64,000 nucleotides of DNA from Candidatus Aminicenantota bacterium. Lineage in GTDB: Bacteria > Acidobacteriota > Aminicenantia > Aminicenantales > UBA4085. The DNA lies in assembly GCA_003141555.1 (NCBI GenBank), contig PLMN01000029.1:89922-153921 (forward strand), in the 5' to 3' direction. Below are positions 2,404 to 10,844 of this stretch, one piece after another (within the stretch, counting starts at the first letter, position 1; every line of letters starts with the position of its first letter). A model generated the notes under the pieces. It saw only the letters and a list, made by a program, of their open reading frames with translations. It searched no databases and had not been told where the DNA came from. The translations under genes and the position numbers were made by a program.

Positions 2404-3210
2404 ATGATCATCCGGGAAACGCTGCAGCATCTGCGTGACGCCCACGGCGATATTCTCGCTTCGGAGCGAATCGAGAGGCTTGTTGTCGGCGTCTGTTTCA
2501 CGGCCGTGCAGCTTTCCGGGGGGGCTTGCGGCATCGCCCGATCCGAACTGGCCGAGGAAATGGCCGGGGGGGCTGCCCGACCCAGGAATCTCGGGGCATT
2601 CTCGCCGGGCCGGTTGCGGGGACAACCGATCCTGGACATTTTGGAACACCAGGATGATCGGTCCCTGTTCGGCAGCGTGAAGCTGGCCGTTCTGAATGCC
2701 GTGTCCGCCAGGGTGATCGCCCGATCCAGTTACACCACCGTGGCCGGGCGCGACCCCCTCGAATGGATCGATGCTTCCGCGGGGAAGGTGATCACTCTCG
2801 TCGGAGCTTTTCCCTCTTACATGGACAAGCTGTCGGAACAGCCCTGCAGGCTCCAGGTTCTGGAACTGGATCCTCAAGCCTTTCCCGAGCGGCATCGCGG
2901 CTCGTACGTGCCGGCGGAGCGGGCGGCGGAGGTTCTGCCGCATTCGGATTCCGTCATCCTGACCGGATCCACCCTGGTCAATCATACGCTCGACAACTTG
3001 CTCAGGCTTATTTCTCCCGGCACTTTCACGGCCATGGTCGGACCTTCCTGCGGGCTGATCCCCGATGCCTTGTTCCGCAAGGGGGTGAGTCTTATCGGGA
3101 CCATCCGGATCCTGGATCCCGAGGCCATGTTCACCGTGATCAGCGAAGGGGGCACCGGATACCATCTCTTCGGCACTTGCGCCGAAAAAATCTGTATTCT
3201 CCATGATTGA
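2404..3210 (+). CDS. DUF4213/DUF364 domain protein (putative metal-chelating)
   Basis: 268 residues. The N-terminal part (about 1-90) resembles the DUF4213 enolase-like domain, with [14 protein letters not shown]. The C-terminal part (about 110-268) resembles the DUF364 Rossmann-like domain, with [27 protein letters not shown] and the ending [16 protein letters not shown]. Structural work on this family proposed a heavy-metal or cofactor-binding role, but no reaction is established. The protein is cytoplasmic, with no signal peptide. It lies 21 bases before the membrane/THEP1 fusion gene and probably forms an operon with it, which suggests that both act on the same imported metal or small molecule (inference). 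Confidence 0.75.
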
Positions 3211-3231
3211 CAAACGTCTTGCGAGGCTCTC

Positions 3232-4965
3232 ATGACCCATGCCCGCCGCCTGGACAGCATTTGGCTGAAAGCGGCCTCGCTAGGATGCCTGTGGGCCTCG
3301 GCCGAGATCGTCCTCGGCGGATTTCTCCACAACCTCCATATTCCGATGGCCGGAAACATCATGGCCGGCACCGGCATCATCCTGATGATCTCCGTCGGCC
3401 ATCTCTGGCCAGAGCCGGGCTTGTTCTGGCGCGCCGGCCTGGTATGCGCCCTGATGAAGGCCCTGGCGCCGAGCTCGGTCCTCTTCGGTCCCATGGTCGC
3501 CATCACCTGCCAGGCTTGTCTGATGGAGCTGTCGGTTCGCATCTTCCGGCGCAATGCCTTCTCCCTTATCCTCGGCTCCATGCTGGCCATGTCGTGGAAC
3601 ATGGCCCAATTCACGATCCGCAATCTGCTCTCCTACGGCAACCGGGCCATCGATCTGTACATGGCCCTGGTCGGGTGGGGCCAGAAAAATCTCGGTCTGC
3701 CGGCGGGAAAGCCCCTGCTGCCCTTGTTCCTCATCCTCATCATGCATCTGGCTTTAGGCTTGGCCGCCGGTCTGCTGGGGCTCTACATCGGCCGCCGCGC
3801 CTCGAGCCGCCCGCTGGAAATGAGCAGCCTAACCCCCGCCCAAGTGATGAACATCCGCTTCGGCCGGCCCGCGCGGGCATTTCCCTATTCCCTGGGCTGG
3901 TTGCTGGCCGATCTGATCCTGCTCGTAGCGGTCCTGGTGCTGACGGGATTGGCCCCTTGGACAATCTGGCTCCCGGCGGGGTTATCGGCCATGGCGGTTT
4001 GGATCCTAAGGTATAGGGACGCGGTCAGGCCCCTGATGCGAGCCGGTTTTTGGGTATGGTTCATCCTGTTGACCGGACTTTCCGGCGCTCTTCTTTCCTC
4101 CTTGAAAAACGGATGGGGAGGGATCCTGGGCGGATTGGGGATCGGACTCGCGATGAATTTTCGGGCGGCCGTTCTTGTGATCGGCTTTTCCGCTTTGGGC
4201 ACGGAACTGCGCTCGCCCCGCGTCGGCACGGGGCTTTCCCGAGGACGCTTCCGGCAGCTTCCCGGGACGTTGGAAGCGGCCGTCGAAACGCTCCCTCTGG
4301 TCATGGCCAATCTGCCCAAGGTCGAGGATATCTTCCGCCGCCCGGTGACGATTTTCCACCGGATGGTGGCTCAGTCCGATTTTTGGCTCAAACGCCTGAC
4401 CTTGAAACAAGCCCGGCGAACGGGCGTCTTGCTCCTGTGCGGGCCTATCGGGGAAGGCAAATCGAGCGCCCTCCAGGGGCTGGTCGAGGGACTGCGCCGG
4501 GACGGCCGCACGGTGGCCGGGATCCTTGCGCCTTCGGTCCTGCAGGACAACCGCCGCATCGGCTACGACCTGGTCGATGTCGCTGGCGGCCGACGGACGG
4601 AATTGTCCCGTATCGCCGGACCATCGGAAGGGGAGGGATCCCCGAGCGTGGGGAGATTCGTTTTCAGACCTGAGGGCATCCGCGCCGGCCAGGCGGCCCT
4701 GTCGCTCCGGGCGGCCGCCGGAGCCGATGTCGTCATCGTGGACGAAGTGGGTCCTTGGGAGCTTAGGGATCAAGGCTGGGCGGGACAGATCTACGAACTG
4801 ACCCTGAAAACACAGGTGCCGATGATCTGGGTGGTCCAGTCCGATATCTTGGACCAGGTCCTTGAGCACTGGGCCCTTCAGAATCCCCGGATCGTCGATC
4901 CATCCGCCTTGTCCCCCGAAACGGCGTTGCAGAAGGTGCGGCAATGGCTTGACGGAGAGAAATAG
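3232..4965 (+). CDS. Polytopic membrane domain fused to a THEP1-like NTPase
   Basis: 577 residues. Residues 1 to about 345 contain eight or nine hydrophobic segments with motifs such as GGFLHNLHIPMAGNIMAG, CALMKALAPSSVLFGPM and WNMAQFTIRNLL, somewhat like a substrate-binding (S) component of ECF transporters. From about 398 there is a soluble P-loop domain: Walker A GPIGEGKS (404-411), RIGYDLVDVAGG, and Walker B VVIVDEVGPWEL near 500. These match the THEP1/NTPase_1 family (former DUF265). The membrane-NTPase fusion suggests nucleotide-driven uptake or processing of a small ligand, perhaps the one bound by the neighbouring DUF364 protein. The NTPase call is firm; the membrane domain's identity is not. 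The next gene is convergent, 27 bases away. Confidence 0.7.
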   Translation: MTHARRLDSIWLKAASLGCLWASAEIVLGGFLHNLHIPMAGNIMAGTGIILMISVGHLWPEPGLFWRAGLVCALMKALAPSSVLFGPMVAITCQACLMELSVRIFRRNAFSLILGSMLAMSWNMAQFTIRNLLSYGNRAIDLYMALVGWGQKNLGLPAGKPLLPLFLILIMHLALGLAAGLLGLYIGRRASSRPLEMSSLTPAQVMNIRFGRPARAFPYSLGWLLADLILLVAVLVLTGLAPWTIWLPAGLSAMAVWILRYRDAVRPLMRAGFWVWFILLTGLSGALLSSLKNGWGGILGGLGIGLAMNFRAAVLVIGFSALGTELRSPRVGTGLSRGRFRQLPGTLEAAVETLPLVMANLPKVEDIFRRPVTIFHRMVAQSDFWLKRLTLKQARRTGVLLLCGPIGEGKSSALQGLVEGLRRDGRTVAGILAPSVLQDNRRIGYDLVDVAGGRRTELSRIAGPSEGEGSPSVGRFVFRPEGIRAGQAALSLRAAAGADVVIVDEVGPWELRDQGWAGQIYELTLKTQVPMIWVVQSDILDQVLEHWALQNPRIVDPSALSPETALQKVRQWLDGEK

Positions 4966-4992
4966 AGGCGAGGAGACGGGAGCTTCGGCGGC

Positions 4993-5628
4993 TCAGGAAT
5001 CGACCGGGAGGTTGAACACCCCTTGCTCTTCCGCATATCGGAGGAGCTTCCGATAATCCTCCGGACTATCGGCATCCATGATCACCCCGCGGTCGTCAAG
5101 CTCCAAGACATGCACCCCGCTTCCGAATGACGAGATGGCGCCCTTCAGTCCCATCCCGCCTTTGTAAGCGAGCAGCCCCGGAATCGCGCCGTTATCCACC
5201 AGGATCGGGTGGCCTTTCCTGCCCTCGTACGCGGGGATGACGATCGGCGCCCCGGATTCCTCCATGATTTTCATCATGAGAAACAGGCTTCGAATGTCAA
5301 ACAGGGGGATATCGCCCGGCATGAAGAAAAGACGGCCCACCATATCCTTCATATGCGCCAGGCCGATGCACGCGGAGCAAAACATGTCCGTCATCGCATA
5401 TTCCCTGTTGTAGAGATAATCAACGCCCAGTCCGGAGAGATGCTCCTGCAGCATCTCCGCGTTATGTCCCATGATGACCCCGATGGAGGAAACGCCCGCC
5501 GCCCTGAGCTTGGCAAGGACGGTCCTTATCACCGTCGAATCCCCAAGCGGCAGCATCGGTTTGAACGCGCTCATCCTTGAAGACAGGCCCGCCGCCACGA
5601 CCACGGCTCCCATCTTCGCCCGTTTCAA
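4993..5628 (-). CDS. MobA/MocA-like nucleotidyltransferase
   Basis: 211-residue NTP_transf_3 protein. The N-terminal nucleotide-binding signature is VVVAAGLSSRMSAFKPMLPLG (positions about 8-28), followed by the metal-binding region MPGDIPLFD, GRKGHPIL and MDADSPEDY, the usual order in MobA-like and molybdenum cofactor cytidylyltransferase-like enzymes. These transfer a nucleotide from CTP or GTP to a phosphorylated cofactor. No molybdoenzyme gene is in the window, so the substrate is open. The start is a TTG at 5628 preceded by GGAGG at 8 bases; an ATG at 5613 is the alternative. It follows the methyltransferase gene on the same strand after about 75 bases. Confidence 0.8.
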   Translation of the reverse strand: MKRAKMGAVVVAAGLSSRMSAFKPMLPLGDSTVIRTVLAKLRAAGVSSIGVIMGHNAEMLQEHLSGLGVDYLYNREYAMTDMFCSACIGLAHMKDMVGRLFFMPGDIPLFDIRSLFLMMKIMEESGAPIVIPAYEGRKGHPILVDNGAIPGLLAYKGGMGLKGAISSFGSGVHVLELDDRGVIMDADSPEDYRKLLRYAEEQGVFNLPVDS

Positions 5629-5702
5629 GGACGTCGCCTCCCGTTCCGGGGCATGTTGAGCTCCCGCCCAGGGTATCGAATTCTATCTCCAGAGGTACTC
5701 GG

Positions 5703-6293
5703 CTACTTCTGGGCCAGGGTGATGAGAATGAAGCGCGTCCTCATTCTTTGACTCAGAACAACGGTGAGGCCGGCATCCTTCATCAGCGCCCGGATCTGAT
5801 GGAGGTTCCTGGCTTTTTCATGAAATACGTTGGATAGCCGTACGGTATGATCGGCGAGGCAAAACCATCCCCCGGGACGAAGCACCCTTCCGATTTCCTG
5901 AAGGCTTTTTCGCTGGTCGGTCCAATGGTGGAATGACAGGCTGCTCAAGACAAGATCCGCGCTCTGATCGGGAAAAGGAATGGACTCAGCCGAGGCCACC
6001 TTGAAAATCGCCCCGGGATTGGATTGCCTGGCTTTGGAGATCATCTGCTCTGCCGGATCGATTCCCATGAATCGGGCCTGCGGCCAACGCGCGGCCGCGG
6101 CCCGCAAGAGACGACCCGTTCCGCAACCGACATCCATGATGTCGAGTCGAGGCCCCGTCGGTTTTTGCCGATCAAGAACCTCGAGCATTTTGGAATGAAC
6201 GGGTCCAAAAAACCAGCGCTGCCAGACGGATTGATCGTAGGTCGCCGCCCAACGATTGAAACGCTCCTTGTTATTCTCGGATGTCGAAGGCAT
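5703..6293 (-). CDS. Class I SAM-dependent methyltransferase
   Basis: 196 residues, Methyltransf_11/UbiE-like. SAM-binding motif I is IMDVGCGTGRLL, followed by the acidic loop FMGIDPAEQMI, SAESIPFPDQSADLVLSS and the post-motif VLRPGGWFCLADH. The substrate cannot be told. The ATG at 6293 is preceded by GGGAGG about 10 bases upstream; an upstream TTG (6311) lies before that Shine-Dalgarno sequence and is unlikely. It precedes the MobA-like gene and follows the M28 peptidase gene, which ends 26 bases after this gene's track begins on the opposite side; co-transcription with the peptidase is possible. Confidence 0.85.
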   Translation of the reverse strand: MPSTSENNKERFNRWAATYDQSVWQRWFFGPVHSKMLEVLDRQKPTGPRLDIMDVGCGTGRLLRAAAARWPQARFMGIDPAEQMISKARQSNPGAIFKVASAESIPFPDQSADLVLSSLSFHHWTDQRKSLQEIGRVLRPGGWFCLADHTVRLSNVFHEKARNLHQIRALMKDAGLTVVLSQRMRTRFILITLAQK

Positions 6294-6336
6294 GGCCTTG
6301 TTTCCTCCCAAACAATAGGACGTCCGCGAATACGAT

Positions 6337-10545: not shown

Positions 10546-10570
10546 ACCAGCCCGACTGCCAGACGTATGC

Positions 10571-10661
10571 GGAGAGGTGCTGGAGTGGTCGATCAGGAGC
10601 GCCTGCTAAGCGCTTGTCCTGGCTCAAACCGGGACCGCGGGTTCGAATCCCGCCCTCTCCG
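10571..10661 (+). tRNA. tRNA-Ser (anticodon GCU)
   Basis: A 91-base class II tRNA. Acceptor arms GGAGAGG and CCTCTCC pair fully, discriminator G at 10661. The anticodon loop CTGCTAA carries GCT, reading AGC/AGU serine codons. It has a long variable arm and a T-arm with GGGTTCGAATCCC. No encoded CCA. It has its own promoter and is followed immediately by the same repeat that follows tRNA-Ser(UGA). Confidence 0.95.
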
Positions 10662-10844
10662 TTCCTTACCCCAAGCGCCAACGATTCCCCCCTCTTTATT
10701 AGGGGGGTCGGGGGGTAAAGTTTGATAAGAATGAAGTTGAAGGCGCTTGGGGCAGTAGCGCCAACGATTCCCCCCTCTTTATTAGGGGGGTCGGGGGGGA
10801 AAGATCAATAAAAAAGGTAGAAGGCGTTTTGGGCCAATAGCGCC
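10662..10844 (+). repeat. Palindromic repeat, family 1, two tandem units
   Basis: After TTCCTTA at the tRNA end, two units of about 83 bases begin at 10674 and 10757, and a third AGCGCC start is visible at 10839. Each unit holds a CCCCCC...GGGGGG hairpin with the loop TCTTTATTA, a second G-run (TCGGGGGG), and at its end a second stem with GGCG(C/T) pairing to AGCGCC. The first unit aligns with the repeat behind tRNA-Ser(UGA). It resembles REP/BIME-type extragenic palindromes. No transposase is linked. Confidence 0.8.

Follow-up and report, generated by a model that had tools for sequence, protein, structure and literature searches.

The 64,000-nucleotide stretch analyzed here (the window; positions 89,922 to 153,921 of contig PLMN01000029.1 from the Candidatus Aminicenantota assembly GCA_003141555.1) encodes a 577-residue protein in which an energy-coupling factor (ECF) S component-like domain, a degenerate EcfT-like domain and a THEP1-type NTPase are joined in one polypeptide, downstream of a gene of the DUF4213/DUF364 family (DUF364 below). 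The fusion appears to be a variant form of ECF transporter that most likely serves molybdenum or tungsten; DUF364 is an optional partner. More specifically, we propose, with a probability of roughly 0.55, that it is an ECF-derived importer of a molybdenum or tungsten ligand that dispenses with ATP-binding cassette (ABC) ATPases and has DUF364 and a MobA-like nucleotidyltransferase acting downstream of it. A search of the open-access literature revealed neither an ECF-type importer of molybdenum or tungsten nor a link between THEP1 and ECF. If correct, the proposal would give roles to three poorly understood families (bacterial THEP1, DUF364 and an unnamed S component), provide a case of an ECF body functioning without ABC ATPases, and make uptake of the molybdenum cofactor open to test.

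The first-pass annotation of the window did not recognize the fusion architecture; a genome scan in fact returned 416 relatives of the protein, and 80 of these, almost all from Bacteroidota, were kept for comparison of their loci. The full fusion is nevertheless rare, occurring in 3 of 345 random Bacteroidota genomes (the centre genome counted). Isolates that carry it include Lutibacter sp. B1 and Maribellus luteus. An alignment of 76 homologous rows (A2) was used for structural modelling and for counts of invariant residues; the resulting AlphaFold2 model of the whole fusion has a pLDDT of 87.6 and a pTM of 0.84. Pfam gave no match for the membrane half (residues 1-393), sequence profiles of the S and T domains matched no relevant solved structure, and a Foldseek search with the whole model was dominated by THEP1 matches and did not inform on the membrane half. 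The S domain was modelled separately from the first 190 residues (pLDDT 89.4). Its closest fold in the PDB is 5edl (probability 1.00, TM 0.55, full coverage, Foldseek E 0.14) and the third match is CbiM (5x3x_m). HHalign aligned the domain at E 7.9e-29 with a set of S proteins, among them those whose genes adjoin ECF A-A ATPase genes at three loci of the same phylum (L034, L035 and L036), and residues E25, H33, N34, K76 and S81 are invariant. By the fold and homology expected of an ECF transporter, residues 5-195 are predicted to be its S component. The resemblance of the membrane half to such a component, suggested in the first-pass annotation, is thus borne out for the S part; the remainder is a second module, an EcfT-like scaffold.

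This second module (residues 214-392) aligned at E 5.9e-5 with an EcfT set that includes intermediates. The C-terminal Arg-Gly coupling motif RG[FYVC], through which EcfT docks its ATPases, is found in 18 of 18 canonical EcfT proteins and in none of the 76 fusions: the EcfT-like domain is degenerate and has lost the ABC-ATPase docking motif. There is no ABC ATPase gene at the window locus. When near was defined as within 5 kb of the fusion and far as 5-10 kb from it, a generic ABC ATPase query, our negative control, showed no enrichment at the Bacteroidota loci (5 near, 6 far). At the place where the ATPases would dock, the protein carries an NTPase instead. The Pfam match (residues 400-543), fold matches and Walker residues uphold the earlier assignment of a THEP1-type NTPase fused to a membrane protein: Walker A spans G404 to K410, Walker B is D504-E505, and G409, K410, D504 and E505 are invariant in 76 of 76 rows. 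The domain is an NTPase_1 member with intact Walker A and B motifs, and positively charged loops would put it on the cytosolic side. In fold and Walker motifs it resembles the THEP1/NTPCR NTPases of known structure (1ye8, 2i3b), but those are free-standing, soluble and of unclear role, whereas the THEP1 of the window is fused to a transporter body.

The fusion resembles Group I ECF transporters (CbiMNQO; the 5edl S component) in its S fold, in its T-like scaffold, in that S and T are encoded together, and in that its relatives at L034-L036 keep ECF ATPases beside S. It differs from them in carrying S, T and a non-ABC NTPase in one polypeptide, in lacking the docking motif and a locus-borne ATPase, and in a genomic context of molybdenum rather than cobalt or vitamins. 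One could still envision that the fusion imports some other metal or a vitamin (cobalt, nickel, a thiamine precursor) as ordinary ECF transporters do, borrowing an ABC ATPase encoded outside the locus, THEP1 being an accessory and the molybdenum neighbors incidental. The host genome does contain one CbiQ and ECF-type ATPase module away from the locus (C31), THEP1 coexists with ECF ATPases at L035, and the 5edl S component, the best fold match, is said to have been described by Josts et al. in 2016 as belonging to a vitamin transporter. The loss of the docking motif from every fusion, the lack of ATPase enrichment near it and the recurrence of molybdenum genes with several types of enzyme make this explanation unlikely.

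The relatives also illustrate how the modules came together. At L035, THEP1, ECF ATPase, S and T are separate genes of a single operon, and DUF364 and a large receptor-like gene are transcribed divergently from it; at L034, genes for an ECF ATPase, an S protein and a T-THEP1 fusion are followed by a MocA-like gene; at L033, an S-T protein adjoins a separate THEP1; and the full S-T-THEP1 fusion is present in the window, at L031 and L032, and in Bacteroidota. Four Bacteroidota loci encode fusions in the opposite order, THEP1-S, of 468-501 residues (L136, 7090-8514; L137, 7525-9030; L138, 7518-8924; L139, 7459-8871), so that the link between S and THEP1 must have arisen more than once. Such repeated joining is good evidence that the two work together. 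No obvious molybdenum genes adjoin the four reverse fusions. In a second group (L140-L143), S-like membrane proteins of about 320-365 residues are paired with a THEP1 protein of 152-156 residues, and at three of these four loci a small gene resembling carboxymuconolactone decarboxylase (a family named by eye) lies alongside.

DUF364 is the directly upstream, same-strand neighbor of the fusion at 40 of the 75 loci with enough upstream sequence, and the two reading frames usually overlap, typically by 8 or 11 bases; at the homologous loci it had no match 5-10 kb from the fusion. The pair recurs more often than chance would give, and in another phylum, Bacteroidota; this is the kind of conserved neighborhood that the first-pass annotation said would support a system. 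That annotation also held that a fusion living mostly without DUF364 would speak against a common system, and this is about half the case: 35 of the 75 loci have no adjoining copy. DUF364, predicted to be cytosolic, is an optional partner, since 33 of 37 genomes tested among those without an adjoining copy have none anywhere. One clade of fusions without DUF364 (L082, L085, L089, L095, L097, L102, L108 and relatives) has an oxidoreductase-like gene (442 residues) and a TIM-barrel-like gene (about 312 residues) upstream, both named by eye; this clade perhaps has a different ligand. The window protein shares the DUF4213 and DUF364 domains of the solved family member 3l5o (Dhaf4260), whose structure paper describes a gene context linked to the transport of molybdate, tungstate, vanadium and iron (PMC2954201). 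The published context is one of ABC transporters, whereas in the fusion loci DUF364 is translationally coupled to an ABC-less protein.

Molybdenum genes cluster around the fusion. In the neighbor test, whose p values ignore shared ancestry, ModE was found at 14 loci near and 0 far (p 5e-4), MobA at 8 and 0 (p 0.014) and XdhC at 7 and 0 (p 0.023). At least four kinds of molybdoenzyme lie near: an aldehyde oxidoreductase cluster (L072, L081), a PhsA-like enzyme (L087), a NapA-like enzyme (L146) and a member of the type II dimethyl sulfoxide (DMSO)-reductase family (L135). At L072 and L081, both in Bacteroidales, complete molybdopterin aldehyde oxidoreductase clusters (NCBIfam NF045668, TrsS, DVU_1551-1557) enclose the DUF364-fusion pair. 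TonB, fusion, MobA and PhsA-like genes follow one another on one strand at L087, the first three touching or overlapping; the order is NapA-like, S, T, TonB, THEP1 at L146, and type II DMSO-reductase family, its chaperone, TatA, S, TonB, THEP1 at L135. As genomics, the molybdenum theme is firm; molybdenum or tungsten as the ligand is not. The first-pass annotation had imagined import and modification of a metal or metallocofactor, a theme that survives and that the neighbors narrow to molybdenum or tungsten. An aldehyde dehydrogenase gene (about 516-546 residues) is found no more than 5 kb from the fusion at 8 of 80 loci (L043, L070, L072, L111 and L119 among them) and at none at 5-10 kb; by NCBIfam the one at L072 is an L-glutamate gamma-semialdehyde dehydrogenase.

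Neighbors such as XdhC, MobA and chaperones are maturation factors, present alongside transport genes, and one might imagine a membrane sensor or maturation platform without transport, the S domain sensing a ligand and THEP1 signaling or aiding cofactor loading. The missing ABC ATPase and the intact NTPase would suit this arrangement. An EcfT-like scaffold and adjoining TonB receptors suit transport better, and homologous S proteins adjoin real ECF ATPases at L034-L036; we consider a platform of this kind quite improbable.

Several observations weigh against a molybdenum or tungsten importer of ECF descent. The 5edl match has its modest E value despite the probability of 1.00, and the T domain aligned with canonical EcfT alone gives E 0.096, which is not significant. 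At many fusion loci no molybdenum gene is visible, and the p values of the neighbor test take no account of shared ancestry. MoeA occurs in 25 of 37 genomes with the fusion and 24 of 40 random Bacteroidota genomes (p=0.64), an absence of enrichment that led us to discard MoeA co-occurrence as support. Finally, the host genome has no ModA but does have a TupA-like tungstate-binding protein, with a score below the NCBIfam cut-off; on this ground we rejected the fusion as sole molybdenum or tungsten importer of its host. With MoeA and the TupA-like protein in the genome, the system there would be at most an extra route. In favor of a molybdenum role, on the other hand, the host genome holds several molybdenum-hydroxylase genes along with MoeA.

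The distribution of MoeA has another side. MoeA is missing from 6 of 7 genomes in which a TonB gene lies no more than 5 kb from the fusion and from 6 of 30 others (p=0.0023, a post hoc comparison of few and non-independent genomes). TonB together with an ECF S component is the usual type of route for bulky cofactors, not small oxyanions. It is tempting to speculate that the ligand is preformed molybdopterin or molybdenum cofactor, taken up through TonB and the fusion, finished by MobA/MocA and replacing endogenous synthesis in some bacteria. Genome G303 has no MoeA at all; the 1.90 of about 2.3 Mb examined contains two DMSO-reductase-family enzymes and MobA, and no MoaA, MoaC, MoaD, MoaE or MoeB. 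This gene set is compatible with cofactor salvage, as a lead and not a result: the genomes are metagenome bins, and that of G303 is incomplete, with 16 tRNA types and no SerS match in the 1.90 Mb. Moreover, of the seven TonB genes, that of L081 lies on the opposite strand at a distance of 2.8 kb, and the window genome encodes MoeA, while no TonB gene adjoins its locus. Salvage is therefore a possible but tentative account of the ligand. The fuller version, in which an ECF-derived importer, a fused THEP1 having taken the place of the ABC ATPases, works with TonB to supply molybdopterin cofactor to the molybdoenzymes of some bacteria without their own synthesis, strikes us as rather doubtful.

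Under the importer we favor, the fusion would be an inner-membrane protein descended from an ECF transporter. Its S domain would bind a molybdenum- or tungsten-bearing ligand and its EcfT-like domain would serve as membrane scaffold, while THEP1, fused where the ABC ATPases used to dock, would power or gate the last step, be it NTP-driven release into the cytosol or trapping. DUF364, translationally coupled to the fusion in most loci that have it, might receive or process the incoming ligand, and a MobA/MocA-type transferase would add the nucleotide before molybdoenzymes are loaded. Passage of the ligand over the outer membrane would, in some Bacteroidota, be through a TonB receptor, with ModE as regulator of the system. 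The computations show the module identities, the lost docking motif and the recurrence with DUF364, ModE, MobA/MocA, XdhC and molybdoenzymes; the direction of transport, the ligand, the release step and the role of DUF364 we infer.

The four genes of the window locus (Table 1) are real and arranged as first described: by the open reading frame calls, DUF364 and the fusion are co-directional at a spacing of 21 bases, and the MobA-like and methyltransferase genes converge on them. The Pfam assignments of DUF364, THEP1, nucleotidyltransferase and methyltransferase hold as well. The methyltransferase frame reaches 6311 with its TTG start, 6293 being an in-frame ATG. Whether the convergent pair belongs with the fusion had been left to proximity, and the two genes now part ways. 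A MobA/MocA-like gene of one of two subfamilies lies within 2 kb of the fusion at 10 of 80 loci, several of them convergent as in the window, and because of this recurrence the link is probably functional. Methyltransferases show no significant enrichment (6 near, 2 far, p=0.28); that of the window is possibly co-transcribed with the MobA-like gene, and its link to the system is weak. The two proteins are of the same general kinds as those of the aldehyde oxidoreductase cluster, but fall below the family cut-offs (MobA-like: DVU_1551 family NF045665, 188.7 bits against 315, and MocA TIGR03310, 114.3 against 186.45; methyltransferase: DVU_1556 NF045667, 80.6 against 155, tied with BioC at 80.2), and the other cluster genes are not beside the window locus.

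Table 1. Features of the locus, in window coordinates
Feature	Position	Strand	Support
DUF4213/DUF364 protein, 268 aa	2404-3210	+	Pfam DUF364 2.2e-40, DUF4213 5.6e-10; PDB relatives 3l5o, 3npg
S-T-THEP1 fusion, 577 aa	3232-4965	+	76-row alignment, AlphaFold2 model
ECF S-component-like domain, residues 5-195	3244-3816	+	fold match 5edl, HHalign, invariant residues
Degenerate EcfT-like domain, residues 214-392	3871-4407	+	HHalign; without C-terminal coupling motif
THEP1-type NTPase domain, residues 396-577	4417-4965	+	Pfam NTPase_1 1.8e-19, folds 2i3b/1ye8, Walker motifs
MobA/MocA-like nucleotidyltransferase, 211 aa	4993-5628	-	NTP_transf_3 3.4e-25
S-adenosylmethionine (SAM) methyltransferase, 202 aa, TTG start	5703-6311	-	Methyltransf_11 5.7e-27; membership uncertain

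In the tree the window fusion falls among the Bacteroidota proteins, apart from those of its own phylum (SH-aLRT 100%, on a long branch). DUF364 is missing from the 11 other genomes of the host's family, which points to horizontal acquisition. Co-transfer of all four genes as a block from Bacteroidota was rejected: the MobA-like protein of the window is no more than a distant relative of its counterparts next to Bacteroidota fusions, and its best match within its own order is 31-32% identical. Repeated association thus seems more likely than a single block transfer. The host genome is 3.8 Mb, and the GC content of the locus is the same as that of the host; plasmid carriage was also considered, and no match was found. 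Two tRNA-Ser genes, at 1458-1547 (anticodon TGA) and 10570-10662 (GCT), flank the four-gene region; tRNA genes are frequent integration sites, and their position would be consistent with DUF364 and the fusion having been acquired as a block. A putative ferritin-like small protein, with weak Pfam support, is encoded directly upstream of DUF364 on the opposite strand (1707-2312, reverse).

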